A stretch of 64,000 nt of DNA from Candidatus Peregrinibacteria bacterium HGW-Peregrinibacteria-1 (GTDB taxonomy: Bacteria > Patescibacteriota > Gracilibacteria > UBA1369 > LOWO2-01-FULL-3): assembly GCA_002839505.1 (NCBI GenBank), contig PGYE01000001.1:294459-358458 (forward strand), in the 5' to 3' direction. Numbering within the stretch: position 1 is the first letter of the stretch; each line of letters starts with the position of its first letter. The notes beneath the pieces were generated by a model. That model did no database searches, had not been told where the DNA came from, and saw only the letters and a program-made list of their open reading frames with translations. A program made the translations under genes and the position numbers. Positions 9,000-17,023 of this stretch are shown piece after piece.

Positions 9000-9031
9000 T
9001 TGGGGCATCCAATATTGATTGGATGCCCCAA
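9000..9031. terminator. perfect 14-bp hairpin between convergent genes
   Basis: TTGGGGCATCCAAT, loop ATTG, ATTGGATGCCCCAA. There is no strong T-run on either side, but the stem is perfect and lies between two converging genes, so a bidirectional terminator or 3'-end stabiliser is the likely role. Confidence 0.6.
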
Positions 9032-9102: not shown

Positions 9103-12100
9103 CTACATCATCTCCATCATCAACACAATGATCTTAGCGGCTTGCGCCCTAGTAAGACTATCAGACGGCCCAAAAAGCCCATTCTGATACCCCTGAACAA
9201 CACCTTTTTCAACGGCAAAAGAGACTAAATCAGAATACCAGCTACCTGCGGCCGTATCAGGAAAGACAAAGGCTTTGCTATAATCCAAGGATAATTCTGA
9301 AGATTTCAAAATTATTGCCAAGGCCTCCACTCTGTTTACAGTATGGTTTGGACGGAATGAACCATCGGCATACCCTTCAATGAATCCCATACTCTTAGCC
9401 GCCTCCACATAAGAAGCAAACCATCCTGTAAGCTCTACATCCGAGAACGAAGAAGCCGTCGGAGTCGGTACACTCAGCTCGTAAGCCTCCATCATCATCT
9501 TCAAAAGTTCGGCTCGAGTAACCGCATCATCCGGAGCAAAAACACCAGGACGCTTACCCTGTACTACACCCTTTTCTCGTAACTTTTCAATATACATCTC
9601 ACCCCAGTGACCATTTACATCATCAAAAGATTGACTCTCAGATTCCACTCCTTCATTACTGAGTCCTGTTGGATTTGTAGATGGCGACAAAAAGCCAATA
9701 CCACCTCCACCACCTCCACCACTACCTCCTCCAATTGTTGGAGATATGTCAGAAAGAGAAAATGAAAACTCTCCCAAAACGGTATCAACAGTATTTACGG
9801 TAATCATCGTATCATTTGAACCAGAACCACCCAAATCAACACTCTGAGATTCACCCGCCCCCAAAGTCACAGTGACTGGATCAGAACTGATCGTAAACTT
9901 TACCTTTGGAGATTCCGGAACATCCAAAATAATTTCCTCAAACACCACCGTATGCAAGGTATTACTTCCCTCAAACATAAACTTCACTGGCTGAGGATCA
10001 TCAGTAAACATCTTTAAATCAATATTCTTGGACAAAGCGGATGTCGCAATCACAACTGGATCAGAATCGACATAAACCACCGGATTTGCAGAAGAAATAG
10101 TTCTTACCTTAAACGAATAACTCGTAACCGGACTCAGATCGCTAACAGTGGTTTTTGTATTTGTGGTTGTAGCGACAAGGCTATCGGAATCTACATCATA
10201 AACCTCGTAAATAGTTCCTTGCGGATTATTGTTTGCTGACCATGACAAAGCTACTGAATGAGAACCGTTCGCTTCAGCAGTTAAAGCAGATACCGAACTA
10301 GGCGCAGTATATGCCGCAACTTCATCAGACGATTCACTTAAATTACCCGATGTGTCCATCTGATAGACACTAAAAAAGTATTCCGTATTTGGTGTTAATC
10401 CCGTAACCGTAGTAGATGTCGTCCCGGCTAAACTTAAATTTTCATCATTCGTAAAATTCCATAGAGTACCCGTGAGACTTGTTACACCTGTAGCATTTCC
10501 GTAATAGACTAAATACTCATCAAAATTACCTGCTACCGAAGCATCCCAACTAAGCACAATGCTATCTGAAGTCGCAGAATCAACTATCAATCCAGTTAAT
10601 GGATTGGGATCCAACACATGAACAAAGAGCTCTGTTCCAAAATCAGTATCCGTTGAGACAAAGAACAAATTTGAATCAATTGGACTCAAATCTGAGGAGC
10701 CATAAGCACCAGTGGAATTCACGTCGCTTACTTTAAAGGTCCCATCTTCAGTTCCGTCTGACCTCCACAACTCAACCGCAATATTTCCATTATCCCAGTT
10801 GAAAAAAGTATAATTAAAAAACAAAAGATTATTCACCTGGATAAGATTTGATGGTGCATGCGTTTGAGAACTCGGTTCAGCACCTGGATTTATATCTTTT
10901 ACCAGCACTGTTCCACTTACAGTTCCATCACTCTTCCAGATCTCATTCCCATTCGTACCATTATCAGCCACAAAAAACAAAAGCCCATTGGCTACAGTTA
11001 AATGTCGTGGAGTAGACCAGTCCGCTCCGGGCTTAATATCTACCAGCATTTGTGTTCCCGCCTCTGTACCGTCAGTTGACCACAATTCTGAACCATTAAC
11101 ACCATTCGTAGCACTAAAATATAGCTTGCCATCAAAGACGGTCATATATTCAACATATGCATACCCCGCATCACTAGCGGTTGGATTAATATGTTTCAAC
11201 ATCATTGTATTTGCTTCATTTCCATCGGTTACCCATAGTTCACTGCCATTCACCCCATCATCAGCTGTAAAATATAGCTTATTATCAAACACTGTCAGAT
11301 TATCAGGAAATGCCCAATCATAAATGTCCTTGACCATCACAGTATTTAGCTCTGTTCCATCCGTCTTCCAAATTTGAATATTATGTGTACCATCATTCGC
11401 CCTAAAAAAAAGTTCATCATTTAATACCGTAAATCTTTCAGGATTTGAATTTGCAGTGGGGTGAATGTCTTTAACCATCACAGTGTTTTGCTGAGTACCA
11501 TCAGTCTTCCAGAGTTCTCGACCGTCATCTCCATCTCCGGAAATGTATAAATAGTCCTTAAATACTATTGGATTCATAGGATTAGTATACCCAAAGGAAC
11601 TCAAAACAAGCCTAATAGTATTCCCTTCACTTCCATCAGTCACCCACAGTTCTTGGCCATTTGCCCCATTGTCAGCCTTAAAAAACAAAAGTCCATTTGC
11701 TACTATAAGATTACTCACAGAGTCATTTCCTGCAGAATTTACGTTTTTTACTTTTACTGTATTCTGTGAAGATCCATCAGTTACCCACAGACCTTGGTCG
11801 GAACCAAACGCCACGCCATTATCGTCCGTAGCCACAAAAAACAAAAGATTATTATAAACAGTAAACTCTCCTGGAAAAGAACCGCCACTGCCCGGATAAA
11901 TATCCTTCACCATATATGTTCCACCTATTGTCCCATCTGACCTCCAAAGCTCTCTACCATTCGTTCCATCATCAGCTACAAAAAACAACAAGCCATTATG
12001 ACTGATGAAGCTTCCAGGATTAGAACTGCCAACTCCGGGATAAATATCTTTAACCAAAGCGGGAGCACTATTTGCTTGAGCGTCAAGATTGCCCAGATTA

Positions 12101-12111
12101 GACATTGCCAA
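9103..12111 (-). CDS. ELWxxDGT-repeat / Fn3 / SLH surface protein, interrupted at both ends
   Basis: A 1002-codon frame. Residues 15-490 hold nine copies of an ELWxxDGT-type repeat (for example RELWRSDGT, SELWVTDGN, VELWRSDGT), spaced about 45-60 residues, expected to form a beta-propeller. Two Fn3 domains (about 505-690), a beta-rich domain, a Gly-rich linker (about 805-820) and three C-terminal SLH domains (about 838-1000) follow, the last for binding cell-wall polymer. The frame begins with TTG (12111) or ATG (12105), inside what is clearly a signal peptide. The peptide really starts at an ATG at 12160-12162 (MKQTLF), but an in-frame TGA at 12142-12144 interrupts it. At the other end TAG (9103-9105) is followed by 19 more sensible codons before TAG-TAA. 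It may be a decaying gene or depend on stop readthrough. Confidence 0.8.
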   Translation of the reverse strand: MAMSNLGNLDAQANSAPALVKDIYPGVGSSNPGSFISHNGLLFFVADDGTNGRELWRSDGTIGGTYMVKDIYPGSGGSFPGEFTVYNNLLFFVATDDNGVAFGSDQGLWVTDGSSQNTVKVKNVNSAGNDSVSNLIVANGLLFFKADNGANGQELWVTDGSEGNTIRLVLSSFGYTNPMNPIVFKDYLYISGDGDDGRELWKTDGTQQNTVMVKDIHPTANSNPERFTVLNDELFFRANDGTHNIQIWKTDGTELNTVMVKDIYDWAFPDNLTVFDNKLYFTADDGVNGSELWVTDGNEANTMMLKHINPTASDAGYAYVEYMTVFDGKLYFSATNGVNGSELWSTDGTEAGTQMLVDIKPGADWSTPRHLTVANGLLFFVADNGTNGNEIWKSDGTVSGTVLVKDINPGAEPSSQTHAPSNLIQVNNLLFFNYTFFNWDNGNIAVELWRSDGTEDGTFKVSDVNSTGAYGSSDLSPIDSNLFFVSTDTDFGTELFVHVLDPNPLTGLIVDSATSDSIVLSWDASVAGNFDEYLVYYGNATGVTSLTGTLWNFTNDENLSLAGTTSTTVTGLTPNTEYFFSVYQMDTSGNLSESSDEVAAYTAPSSVSALTAEANGSHSVALSWSANNNPQGTIYEVYDVDSDSLVATTTNTKTTVSDLSPVTSYSFKVRTISSANPVVYVDSDPVVIATSALSKNIDLKMFTDDPQPVKFMFEGSNTLHTVVFEEIILDVPESPKVKFTISSDPVTVTLGAGESQSVDLGGSGSNDTMITVNTVDTVLGEFSFSLSDISPTIGGGSGGGGGGGIGFLSPSTNPTGLSNEGVESESQSFDDVNGHWGEMYIEKLREKGVVQGKRPGVFAPDDAVTRAELLKMMMEAYELSVPTPTASSFSDVELTGWFASYVEAAKSMGFIEGYADGSFRPNHTVNRVEALAIILKSSELSLDYSKAFVFPDTAAGSWYSDLVSFAVEKGVVQGYQNGLFGPSDSLTRAQAAKIIVLMMEMM

Positions 12112-12321: not shown

Positions 12322-12411
12322 TGGCGGAGAGACAGGGATTCGAACCCTGGAGGAGCTTGCGCCCCTGACGGTTTTCAAGACCGTTGCTTTCGACCGCTCA
12401 GCCATCTCTCC
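12322..12411 (-). tRNA. tRNA-Ser (anticodon UGA)
   Basis: Class II tRNA. Acceptor GGAGAGA/TCTCTCC, discriminator G, encoded CCA; anticodon loop CTTGAAA (TGA, reading UCA codons); long variable arm GGGGC..GCTCC; T-loop TTCGAAT. It decodes serine and is not a UGA suppressor. Confidence 0.95.
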
Positions 12412-12714: not shown

Positions 12715-15318
12715 TTACATCTCCTCCACAACATTAATCCCCAAAAGCATCAAACCATTCTTCATCACCTGCGCCGTCGCCTCCACAATCTTCAAGCGCG
12801 CCTCCCGCTTCTCCTTATCTTCCGACTTAAGCACCGGAACATTATTATAAAAAGAATTAAACCGCTGCGCCAAATCATACAAATAATTACTGATCAAATT
12901 CGGCTTATACTCCTTCGCCGCCATCAGCAACGCCTCTTGAAACTTCGGCAAAAACGCCACCACATTTCTTGTCTTACCAGCAACATCATCACCATCTTCG
13001 ACAAAATTTCCCATCTCTCCGACCTCCTGTGATTTCCTCAAAATACTCTTCGCCCTCGCGTAAGTGTATTGCAAATATGGCCCGCTATTACCCTCCAAAC
13101 TCAACATTCTCTCCCAATCAAAAACAATATCCGTCGTTCTATTCTGTGAAAGCACACTATATTTCACCGCACCGACACCAACCTCGTGACCCACCAACTC
13201 CTTATCTTTCAACTTTGGATTTTTTTCTTTCACTACCTTCACCGCCCTCTTTTCCGCCTCATCAACCACATCCTCCAACCTTACAATATTCCCCTTTCTC
13301 GTGCTCATACGCCCCTCCTTCATCTGCATTCTTCCAAACGAAATATGCTCCCCCTCATCGCCATACCAATCAAAACCTTCCACCGCCGTAAACAACTGCT
13401 TAAAATGCAAAGTCTGCGCCACATCAACCACATACAAGATTTTTTCCGGCTTAAAAGTATCAATACGATACTTCAATGCCGCCAAATCCCTGGTCGAATA
13501 CAATGTCGCCCCATCCTTTTTTTGCACCACCAGCGGAGACATATTTTCATCGTCAAACATCACTACAAACGCCCCCTCATTACCCTCCACAAACACACCA
13601 TTCTCCTTCCCTTCCTTCAAAAGATCCGCCAACATCGGCTCATAAAAACTCTCACCCTGATAATAATCAAAATGCACATTCCCCAAACGATCATAAATAT
13701 TCCTTAAATCATCGATACTCACCTCCACAAACCACTTCCACAAAGCTCTATTTTCACTATCTCCCTCTTCAAAAATCTTAAATTCGTGCCTAGCCTCATC
13801 CTCCAACGCCGGATCCTTCTCCGCCGCATCATGAAACCGAACATACAAACTTAACAGCTCATTAATCGGATTTTTTTCAACACTCTTCTTCTTTCCCCAA
13901 CGCTTATACGCCACAATCAACTTCCCAAATTGCGTGCCCCAATCCCCTAAATGATTAATCGCAATCGCATCAAACCCAACAGCATTCAAAATATTATGCA
14001 AACTCTGACCAATCACAGTTGAAAGTAAATGATGCACCCCCAGTGGCTTCGCAATATTTGGTGAACTATATTCCACTATAATCTTCTTATTTGCACCTGC
14101 TCGCAATTTTCCATACTGCTCCCTCTTTTCCAGCACAACCGCCACCTCATTTTCCAAAAAACGCTGATCCAAAAAGAAGTTTATAAAACCATTGCCCGCC
14201 ACCTCTACACGATCCACCAGATCATTAATCGGCATACTATTTTTAATATTAGTTGCCACCTCCAAAGGACTCATCTTCAAGATTTTCGCCAGCTGAAAGG
14301 CAACCCCGCATGCGTAATCACCATTCTCAGAATCATTAGGCTGCTCAACTTTAATTCTAAAATCGGACTCGTCAACATCAGATGCAAACGCCCTCAAAAC
14401 CCCCTGCATCAAAAGCACTTTAATTCGTCCGCTCAAAAGATCCGCATCACTTAGCTCCAGCGACCTCTTAGGCTTCGACTTTTTCACCTTCTTAACAGCG
14501 GCAGCGGCATCCTTCACTGGCTCCGAAGCACTCAATTCCGCCCTTTTTTTCATCTCAAAATATGCTTTTTCTTGTGCCGGAATCTTCGAATCATTCATGT
14601 TTACTCGTCCATGGATTCCCATATCAACTCCATAGTGATCATGCCCCAAAACATATGACTCCACACTCCCTCCCAAATATTTACTCACCGAATCTTGAAT
14701 CTCTTTAAGCATTTCCCCAAACTGATCCGCGTGTATTTTTGACATATCCTCAATAAAAAGCACCGCATTCACAGTCCTCCTCGTAATATTCGTCCGCTCA
14801 CACTCATCAGCATTCCAATAACGACAAATTATTCCACCAGCATCAACATAACCAGCCTCACCCTCCTTAGCATCTTCCACATCCACCGAATTCTTCATCC
14901 TAAACGGCTCGCCCCCATCAGTAAACTTCAGCCACAAATCACCACAAATCCAGTCCAAATCATGCGCCACCACCGGCAACTTATACTTCAAAGCAAAATA
15001 CCTACTCAGATCCTTCAAAGCACTCTCATACTCCACGGATTCTTCCGCCTTCGCCGCTCTCAACAACTCTTTAAAACCACTCAACTTCTTGTCCGGATTC
15101 ACTCCCAGATTTCCATAAACACGATCCCACACCGCCACCATCGCATCCTCATTCAACTTTTTAACCGCAAACTCCTTACCTCTCTGCGCAGAAACCCCTC
15201 TAAAGAGCCCCTCCACCGACGACATTTTTCTGCTATTATCGAAATTTTTTATCAAAATAACTCCCATTTTGAAGTCCGGGAAACTTTCGAAGATTTTTTG
15301 ATCAACACTGAATTTCAT
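12715..15318 (-). CDS. argS: arginyl-tRNA synthetase with N-terminal B3/B4 tRNA-editing-type domain
   Basis: Charges tRNA-Arg with arginine. The ATG at 15316-15318 is chosen because B3/B4-family proteins start with this sequence (MKFSVDQKIFESFPDFKMGV); an in-frame ATG 11 codons upstream is possible. The protein has 867 residues against about 560 for usual ArgS. Residues 1-240 resemble the B3/B4 domain of PheT: the FPDFKMGVILIKNF opening, LPVVAHDLDWICGDLWLKF, and GIICRYWNADECERTNIT. A Lys/Ala-rich linker (about 250-295) follows, then a normal ArgS: N-terminal domain, HIGH-like SSPNIAKPLGVHHLL, KMSKS-like MSTRKGN, and a C-terminal anticodon-binding DALR domain. The extra domain may edit or help bind tRNA; that is inference. 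The downstream partner is DUF1653. Confidence 0.95.
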   Translation of the reverse strand: MKFSVDQKIFESFPDFKMGVILIKNFDNSRKMSSVEGLFRGVSAQRGKEFAVKKLNEDAMVAVWDRVYGNLGVNPDKKLSGFKELLRAAKAEESVEYESALKDLSRYFALKYKLPVVAHDLDWICGDLWLKFTDGGEPFRMKNSVDVEDAKEGEAGYVDAGGIICRYWNADECERTNITRRTVNAVLFIEDMSKIHADQFGEMLKEIQDSVSKYLGGSVESYVLGHDHYGVDMGIHGRVNMNDSKIPAQEKAYFEMKKRAELSASEPVKDAAAAVKKVKKSKPKRSLELSDADLLSGRIKVLLMQGVLRAFASDVDESDFRIKVEQPNDSENGDYACGVAFQLAKILKMSPLEVATNIKNSMPINDLVDRVEVAGNGFINFFLDQRFLENEVAVVLEKREQYGKLRAGANKKIIVEYSSPNIAKPLGVHHLLSTVIGQSLHNILNAVGFDAIAINHLGDWGTQFGKLIVAYKRWGKKKSVEKNPINELLSLYVRFHDAAEKDPALEDEARHEFKIFEEGDSENRALWKWFVEVSIDDLRNIYDRLGNVHFDYYQGESFYEPMLADLLKEGKENGVFVEGNEGAFVVMFDDENMSPLVVQKKDGATLYSTRDLAALKYRIDTFKPEKILYVVDVAQTLHFKQLFTAVEGFDWYGDEGEHISFGRMQMKEGRMSTRKGNIVRLEDVVDEAEKRAVKVVKEKNPKLKDKELVGHEVGVGAVKYSVLSQNRTTDIVFDWERMLSLEGNSGPYLQYTYARAKSILRKSQEVGEMGNFVEDGDDVAGKTRNVVAFLPKFQEALLMAAKEYKPNLISNYLYDLAQRFNSFYNNVPVLKSEDKEKREARLKIVEATAQVMKNGLMLLGINVVEEM

Positions 15319-15425
15319 AAGAACATCTTTTAATAAACTGTCATACCACAACGGATTCTAAAGAAAAGTTACCTAAAAACAAAGCAAAATTATCGCGACC
15401 AAATAAAAATACTATATCAAGAGGA

Positions 15426-15511: not shown

Positions 15512-17023
15512 ATGAATAAATGGATCACCAAGCAAGTATCAAAGCTTGCTTTAGTCGCCACCACACTACTTGTATTAAGTGTTGGTGCATACGCTGCCGA
15601 CATCACTCCCCCGGGAGATGTCACGAATTTTACCGGTACCGCCTTCGACGGTAGTGTCCAGCTTAGTTGGGCACCTGCCACCGATGACACCGGCATTGCC
15701 GGATACCAAGTTCACTACGGAAGAACTTCCGTCAGTCAAGATGGTCAAAGTTACGAGACCTTCATCGATGTCGGAAATGTCACAGATTATGTTCTCACAG
15801 GATTGAACAACAACTCTGCCTACTATTTCTCAGTTATTGCCTATGATGCCGCTAGCAATGAAAGCGCCAGATGGGCCGCGGAAATATCACTGACACCCAA
15901 TGCAGCAGCCGGTGCCGTCGTTGATAGTATTCCTCCACAAGTAGTCGAAGCTGAAGCAATTGATAAAGAGACAGTAAAAGTTGTTTTCTCCGAGCCTGTT
16001 AAACTACCGGCCGAAGACCCACAAGATGCTTTTACCATCGAAGATAATGGTACATTTACAGCTCTAATCGCCTCAGATGCCGGTTTTGATCCAGCCGATG
16101 TATCTGAAAGAACAGTTCTCGTTACAACTGAAGACCAAATTGCCAATGCTCAATACCGCGTTACCGCATCAATTGAAATTACCGACAAAGCGGGAACACC
16201 AATCAGCAGCGGAATATCTGACTCTGCACTATTCACCGGTAGCTCACTCGAACCAGCTCAACCACTCGAATTTGTTAAGGCAGAATCAGTATCAAAAAAC
16301 GGAGTAAAAGTCACATTCGATGCCCCACTTGAACTCGACCTCAATTTTAATATCGACCCTTCAGAAAACTTTGTGATCACAGAAACACAAACACCAAATA
16401 GTGGTCTCTCTATTCTCGGAGTAGAAGTTGAGATTGAAAACGGAAACCCGACAGGGACCGTTGCCTTAATAACAACAGAGCAAAAAGCTGTCTCTTACAC
16501 ACTTACCGTCAACGGATTAAAAGACAATAGCGGAAAGGATATAACTCCTGACCCAAACACAATCACCTTTAACGGCACCGCATCCGAAGACCCGACTGAC
16601 CCAACAGATCCTACCGATCCAACAGACCCCACCGACCCAACCGATCCCGTTCTATCAATCGAAGCCTTCAATTTCCTTGCAAAAGCTACATTCAGCGCTC
16701 AAAAGTATTTATTGCACTTCACATGGGAATTACCGGAGGAAAACGATGCCATCAAACAATTCTTCTACATCAGTACCGACAACGAAGAATTTGAAAAAAC
16801 CGGTGAACTCGAAGGCGGAATAACCGCTGCTGAAGTTGACGGACTCGAACCAGGAGAATACTGGTTTAAGCTCACACAAACCGATGAAGATGGTAATGAA
16901 ACCGAAGGTGTCGTCACCAAAGTACTCCTAGCGGAAACTGGTCCAGGACTACTCGGAATGCTCGTCGGATCAACCATACTTGGACGCATCGTTACCCGCC
17001 GCAAATCCAAAGACCAAGAATAA
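15512..17023 (+). CDS. secreted Fn3/Ig-like protein with LAETG-type sortase signal
   Basis: A 503-residue surface protein. The signal peptide covers about 1-29 (VATTLLVLSVGAYAA). An Fn3 domain (about 30-130, opening ITPPGDVTNFTGTAFDGSVQ) precedes two bacterial Ig-like units (about 140-245 and 247-350; each starts with a V-KVVFSEP / V-KVTFDAP strand). A hinge of six DPT tripeptides (about 360-380) and another beta domain (about 385-470) follow. The end is LAETG, a hydrophobic helix and RRKSKDQE, the layout of a sortase substrate with LAETG in place of LPXTG. No sortase gene is in the window. It has its own promoter and a strong terminator. The ligand is unknown. Confidence 0.8.
   Translation: MNKWITKQVSKLALVATTLLVLSVGAYAADITPPGDVTNFTGTAFDGSVQLSWAPATDDTGIAGYQVHYGRTSVSQDGQSYETFIDVGNVTDYVLTGLNNNSAYYFSVIAYDAASNESARWAAEISLTPNAAAGAVVDSIPPQVVEAEAIDKETVKVVFSEPVKLPAEDPQDAFTIEDNGTFTALIASDAGFDPADVSERTVLVTTEDQIANAQYRVTASIEITDKAGTPISSGISDSALFTGSSLEPAQPLEFVKAESVSKNGVKVTFDAPLELDLNFNIDPSENFVITETQTPNSGLSILGVEVEIENGNPTGTVALITTEQKAVSYTLTVNGLKDNSGKDITPDPNTITFNGTASEDPTDPTDPTDPTDPTDPTDPVLSIEAFNFLAKATFSAQKYLLHFTWELPEENDAIKQFFYISTDNEEFEKTGELEGGITAAEVDGLEPGEYWFKLTQTDEDGNETEGVVTKVLLAETGPGLLGMLVGSTILGRIVTRRKSKDQE

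Follow-up and report, generated by a model that had tools for sequence, protein, structure and literature searches.

A CtdA-related B3/4 domain with an altered pocket at the N-terminus of a Peregrinibacteria arginyl-tRNA synthetase

The only arginyl-tRNA synthetase (ArgRS) encoded by the Peregrinibacteria genome studied here begins with a B3/4 domain whose nearest kin is the deacylase CtdA, and not the B3/B4 domain of PheT. The fusion is real and old. We read the protein, with a probability of about 0.6, as an ArgRS carrying a covalently tethered CtdA-type deacylase for post-transfer editing of mischarged tRNA(Arg) in cis. The pocket of the copy in the window (the whole 64,000-nucleotide stretch of DNA that was analysed) has nonetheless been replaced at several positions that CtdA and most fused relatives keep. 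CtdA proteins of two organisms deacylate canavanyl-tRNA(Arg), and that of P. canavaninivorans has no effect on arginyl-tRNA(Arg); canavanine is not discriminated by most ArgRS, for which no editing domain is known according to the same paper (PMC10018355). Nor does a 2024 review list a post-transfer editing domain for any of ArgRS, LysRS, TyrRS, MetRS and TrpRS (PMC11415595). Among open-licence papers we found no report of B3/4 on any of these five synthetases, though 'B3/4' is unusable as a search term and an earlier mention is possible. Cis-proofreading by the fused ArgRS would be without counterpart in any described ArgRS.

The genome, of the Peregrinibacteria/Peribacteria type, consists of one contig, 998,424 bases long (0.998 Mb). 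The argS reading frame runs from an ATG at 15318 to a stop at 12715-12717, and an in-frame TTG at 15351 would extend it by 11 residues. The features of the gene, all on the minus strand, are as follows.

12715..15318, minus: argS, the B3/4-ArgRS fusion, 867 aa, sole ArgRS in the genome (ORF, Pfam, NCBIfam)
14623..15318, minus: CtdA-type B3/4 domain, residues 1-232 (Pfam B3_4, phmmer, AlphaFold, VIA-align)
14962..15006, minus: pocket segment, residues 105-119, SRYFALKYKLPVVAH in the window, YNYFSLKYxLPIGGE in relatives (alignment)
14788..14817, minus: second pocket segment, residues 168-177, WNADECERTN in the window, WNxRECERTK in relatives, WNWRQGVRTR in CtdA
14419..14586, minus: Lys/Ala-rich linker, residues 245-300 (about) (AlphaFold)
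14170..14385, minus: Arg_tRNA_synt_N domain, residues 312-383 (Pfam)
13114..14145, minus: ArgRS class I catalytic domain (tRNA-synt_1d), residues 392-735 (Pfam)
14029..14040, minus: HIGH-motif position, residues 427-430, GVHH where HVGH is expected (alignment)
12718..13074, minus: DALR anticodon-binding domain (DALR_1), residues 749-867 (Pfam)

The initial annotation had described an 867-residue ArgS with a B3/B4-type N-terminal extension on a Lys/Ala-rich linker, and proposed an HMM search and an AlphaFold model as checks. Both agree with that description. In Pfam, B3_4 scores above its curated threshold (E 1e-8; residues 64-190 in the 867-residue numbering) and is followed in order by Arg_tRNA_synt_N, tRNA-synt_1d (the class I (R) catalytic domain) and DALR_1, and NCBIfam identifies the whole as an argS equivalog (E 3e-152). 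The linker is there, and is predicted to be disordered, with pLDDT below 50 at residues 262-281 of the full-length model; its length differs among relatives. That model has a pTM of 0.65 and places the two halves relative to each other with low confidence, so that we claim no domain geometry. Compared with the bacterial ArgRS (class I, TIGR00456), the protein has complete N-terminal, catalytic and DALR domains, to which the editing-type domain and the linker are added. The synthetase body has a KMSKS-like MSTRKGN, and at the HIGH position reads GVHH (AKPLGVHHLLST); GVHH (GxHH) is found there in most members of this ArgRS clade, with or without the B3/4 domain.

What is the origin of the extra domain? 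Searched with phmmer against solved structures, the first 287 residues match only 9mkl (7e-8) and 9f7e, which is CtdA (6e-6), and give no PheT match. With a profile built from 30 relatives, the hits to 9mkl (3e-33) and CtdA (5e-32) are far ahead of the first PheRS beta chains (5e-4). Modelled alone, residues 1-245 reach a mean pLDDT of 95, and the model fits CtdA across residues 1-229. Foldseek ranks CtdA first (E 4e-17), and so does VIA-align, with Z 27.4 for 9f7e over 220 residues at an rmsd of 2.3, Z 26.9 for 9mkl and about 15 for PheRS beta. In the domain tree a branch with moderate support (SH-aLRT 87) has on one of its sides, of 36 rows, both CtdA proteins together with the domains linked to ArgRS; two ArgRS fusions, L148 and L183, fall outside that side. 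The B3/4 assignment of the initial annotation therefore stands, and the PheT parentage that it implied is ruled out by profile, fold and tree.

CtdA, known from Pseudomonas canavaninivorans and Clostridium perfringens (9f7e, 9mkl), resembles the window's domain in its whole fold, its sequence and its tie to tRNA(Arg), and the motifs DLYN, GGE and WNxR..RT are common to CtdA and most fused relatives. The genetic setting is different, since CtdA is a standalone protein associated with guanidine riboswitches or the catabolism of canavanine, whereas the window's domain is fused to ArgRS and has no such neighbours. There is no canavanine catabolic neighbourhood around this argS, and no guanidine riboswitch near it; the only Rfam match between positions 9000 and 20000 is a tRNA. 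A tRNA-Ser(TGA) gene (12322-12411) lies just downstream on the same strand, and the flanks at 9103-12111 and 15512-17023 read as large fibronectin-like or S-layer-type proteins. With the B3/B4 domain of PheRS beta the likeness is one of fold, pocket location and the logic of editing in cis on a synthetase; the sequence similarity is weak (E 5e-4), the Z-score lower, and PheRS belongs to the other synthetase class. The YbaK/INS proteins (ProXp) offer a parallel, as an editing module found either fused to ProRS or free, though they belong to another Pfam family, tRNA_edit, whose classic host is ProRS.

How widespread is the fusion? Named relatives identified by a DNA scan were Peregrinibacteria, Peribacteria and Gracilibacteria MAGs; a contig scan with the window's domain alone gave no match, and one with an alignment gave matches. 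In the 30 genomes of the family, the window's included, domain and ArgRS occupy one open frame in 19, are adjacent genes in seven and meet a contig edge in one. The remaining three have no domain match, and there argS is absent or truncated by the contig, its 5' end unassembled. Wherever the 5' end of argS is assembled in the family, the domain is either fused to ArgRS or encoded next to argS. In the split forms the domain gene directly precedes argS, in most cases with stop and start within about 10 bases or overlapping. In the ArgRS tree these split forms are scattered among fused ones, a pattern more simply read as fission; the initial annotation had asked whether separate start codons in relatives might betray an artefact, and the seven separate pairs instead resemble fissions. 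The fusion recurs in many genera and is also present in unrelated and distant Patescibacteria; related families of the same order have ArgRS without the domain, with a full domain or with a truncated one. Six truncated examples (L037-L040, L046, L047) have lost the GGEPFR or the CRxWN core, and such remnants are probably non-catalytic.

For the ancestral and majority form, cis post-transfer editing is the most likely explanation, because of the kinship to CtdA, the linkage to argS and the CtdA-like pocket in most members. In this scheme the ArgRS half would load tRNA(Arg), at times with canavanine or another analogue of arginine; the N-terminal domain, on its flexible linker, would be able to receive the 3' CCA end of the mischarged tRNA(Arg); and the B3/4 domain would hydrolyse the ester, so that the synthetase would proofread in cis. 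Hydrolysis, substrate and CCA transfer are what we infer for the fused domain, and canavanine is the likeliest ancestral substrate. With such a fusion, proofreading of tRNA(Arg) in cis becomes open to direct test.

Does the window's own protein do this? CtdA (9f7e/9mkl) and most fused relatives retain Y105, N106, S109, G117, G118, E119 and R171. Measured against CtdA or most fused relatives, the window's copy has Y105S, N106R, S109A, GGE117-119VAH, R171D and K177N, so that the Y N S G G E R of the CtdA pocket (105, 106, 109, 117-119, 171) reads S R A V A H D. Other residues are kept, namely D103, D120, D122, E137, F139, E154, D159, W168, N169, R175 and T176. At columns conserved outside the family the window retains 31 of 46, against 38-42 in pocket-intact relatives, and, measured against its own ArgRS body, its domain has diverged further than in other pairs (identity ratio 0.84, other pairs 0.98). 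Profile positions 95-144 align without gaps with residues 239-288 of Thermus thermophilus PheRS beta, and residues 105/106 therefore correspond to PheRS beta Thr249/Asn250, and 117-119 to the HAF segment, which is GGE in CtdA and most fused relatives and VAH in the window. A role in positioning the catalytic water has been proposed for Thr249 and Asn250 (PMC12447630). With these pocket residues replaced, canavanine editing by the window's protein is doubtful, and we consider it unlikely. The suggestion of canavanine-type editing in the initial annotation consequently holds for the lineage, whose closest characterised kin are canavanyl-tRNA(Arg) deacylases and whose domain is linked to argS, and is doubtful for this particular copy. 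Judged from its sequence, the copy would be expected to have either a changed activity, on another substrate, or a lost one, the domain being retained for tRNA binding or structure.

One would like to know whether such changes arose once. Comparable substitutions occur at the same pocket positions in several relatives, G117 becoming R, H, V or S, Y105 becoming C, S, V or G, and N106 becoming K, R or H. On the ArgRS tree the altered copies do not group as a single clade (AU test, p 0.001), which rules out a single origin there, and the starred branches of that tree force at least three pocket changes. A grouping of altered copies in the first B3/4 tree disappeared once the pocket columns were dropped, and the altered copies then scatter as they do in the ArgRS tree. 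The domain is also under strong purifying selection. Its dN/dS is 0.014-0.072 in pairs whose domain is full-length and whose dS is unsaturated, leaving out the partly altered pair L033/L034, for which it is 0.11. Close relatives with an altered pocket have a domain dN/dS of 0.01-0.06, not above that of the ArgRS body, and therefore the altered domain is still under selection, either retuned or non-hydrolytic; decay is ruled out for these relatives, at 0.014-0.06. By extension from its siblings the window's domain, which has no close relative, would be retuned or non-catalytic and not decaying. Repeated pocket changes under such constraint form a natural series on what the pocket recognises.

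Two alternatives follow from the altered pocket. It is rather unlikely that in the window's lineage the domain has ceased to be a hydrolase and serves ArgRS as an additional arm for tRNA binding or structure. The independent replacement of pocket residues in the window and several relatives (AU p 0.001), the low dN/dS of the altered copies and the truncated remnants on ArgRS of sister families are all consistent with such an arm. The complete CtdA-type pocket of most fused relatives is not, nor are the split forms, in which the domain is a separate protein and so no arm of ArgRS at all, nor the eleven residues from D103 to T176 that the window's copy keeps. Slightly less likely still is a domain that remains an active deacylase but has been retuned, in the window's lineage, to a different mischarged tRNA(Arg) product. 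The parallel changes at 117, 105 and 106 in a strongly constrained domain would suit retuning, and the same pocket positions vary between the domains on Arg-, Lys- and Tyr-tRNA synthetases; against it, the window's copy has Arg in place of N106, the counterpart of the catalytic-water residue Asn250 in PheRS.

Could the domain instead edit D-aminoacyl-tRNA, in place of a missing D-aminoacyl-tRNA deacylase? No DTD (PF02580) was found in the window's genome. Tyr, Trp and Lys synthetases are known to charge D-amino acids, and the domain is found on TyrRS, TrpRS and LysRS as well. However, roughly half of the family genomes with an ArgRS fusion do have DTD, as do two of four additional genomes with a TyrRS fusion, so that presence of DTD and presence of the fusion show no clean anticorrelation, and replacement of DTD is rejected. 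The CtdA substrate is moreover an L-analogue, and D-arginine was not charged by the ArgRS tested (PMC10018355), all of which leaves D-editing very improbable. Equally remote is the reading, raised in the initial annotation, that the domain edits other tRNAs in trans; Tyr-tRNA(Phe) would be one example for a PheT-like module merely sitting on ArgRS. PheRS B3/4 does act so on its own product and the fold is common to both (Z 15), but the domain is CtdA-like rather than PheT-like, the genome has a separate, ordinary PheT with its own B3/4, and the linkage to argS is near-universal in the family. An assembly or gene-calling artefact, to which the separate adjacent genes of seven relatives might seem to point, is ruled out for practical purposes by the one-contig genome, the open fusion frames in 19 family genomes and the same fusion in distant Patescibacteria.

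Other synthetases carry a domain of this family as well. Class II LysRS has it at the C-terminus in Patescibacteria, one Verrucomicrobia MAG and one Parachlamydiales MAG, and at the N-terminus in several Chlamydiae (class II fusions: L053, L098, L101, L103, L108, L111, L155-L157, L162, L175, L176, L181, L189, L193). Class I LysRS has it at the C-terminus in Patescibacteria and archaeal MAGs (L054-L056, L107, L109, L110, L191, L196; as an adjacent gene in L190). Two unrelated enzymes thereby connect the domain to tRNA(Lys). Eight TyrRS carry it at the N-terminus, with Tyr or His at residue 119 (L045, L058-L060, L104, L105, L112, L114). Single cases on long branches are a TrpRS (L115 of G114, a 753-aa frame), in which an N-terminal YbaK-type tRNA_edit domain precedes B3_4, and a MetRS with a C-terminal B3/4 (L116 of G262, an 812-aa frame). 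This wider set points to where editing substrates of LysRS and TyrRS may be sought. Well-supported branches of the domain tree require at least four changes involving class II LysRS labels, at least two involving class I LysRS and at least two involving ArgRS, as gains or losses.

Does the pocket follow the partner? All 37 Arg-linked or CtdA domains have R175, as do 9 of the 26 Lys-linked domains. At residue 119, CtdA and domains with Arg partners mostly have E, and domains with Lys partners mostly D (or F, Y). The Fisher p values for these associations are tiny but reflect only one or two independent contrasts, and we regard a link between these two residues and the partner as a lead. More tentatively, with somewhat less than even confidence, the CtdA-type B3/4 domain may be a modular cis-editing unit grafted repeatedly onto synthetases otherwise without an editing domain (ArgRS, class I and class II LysRS, TyrRS, MetRS and TrpRS), its pocket (chiefly 117-119 and 175) tuned to the amino acid of the partner and, in the window's lineage, now being rebuilt.

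Eighteen scanned loci carrying mostly standalone domains had no guanidine riboswitch; they had three cobalamin riboswitches, distant and on the opposite strand. Two of the class II LysRS fusions, L098 and L103, also contain an HD domain in the same chain, and L103 has a DUF2000 in addition.
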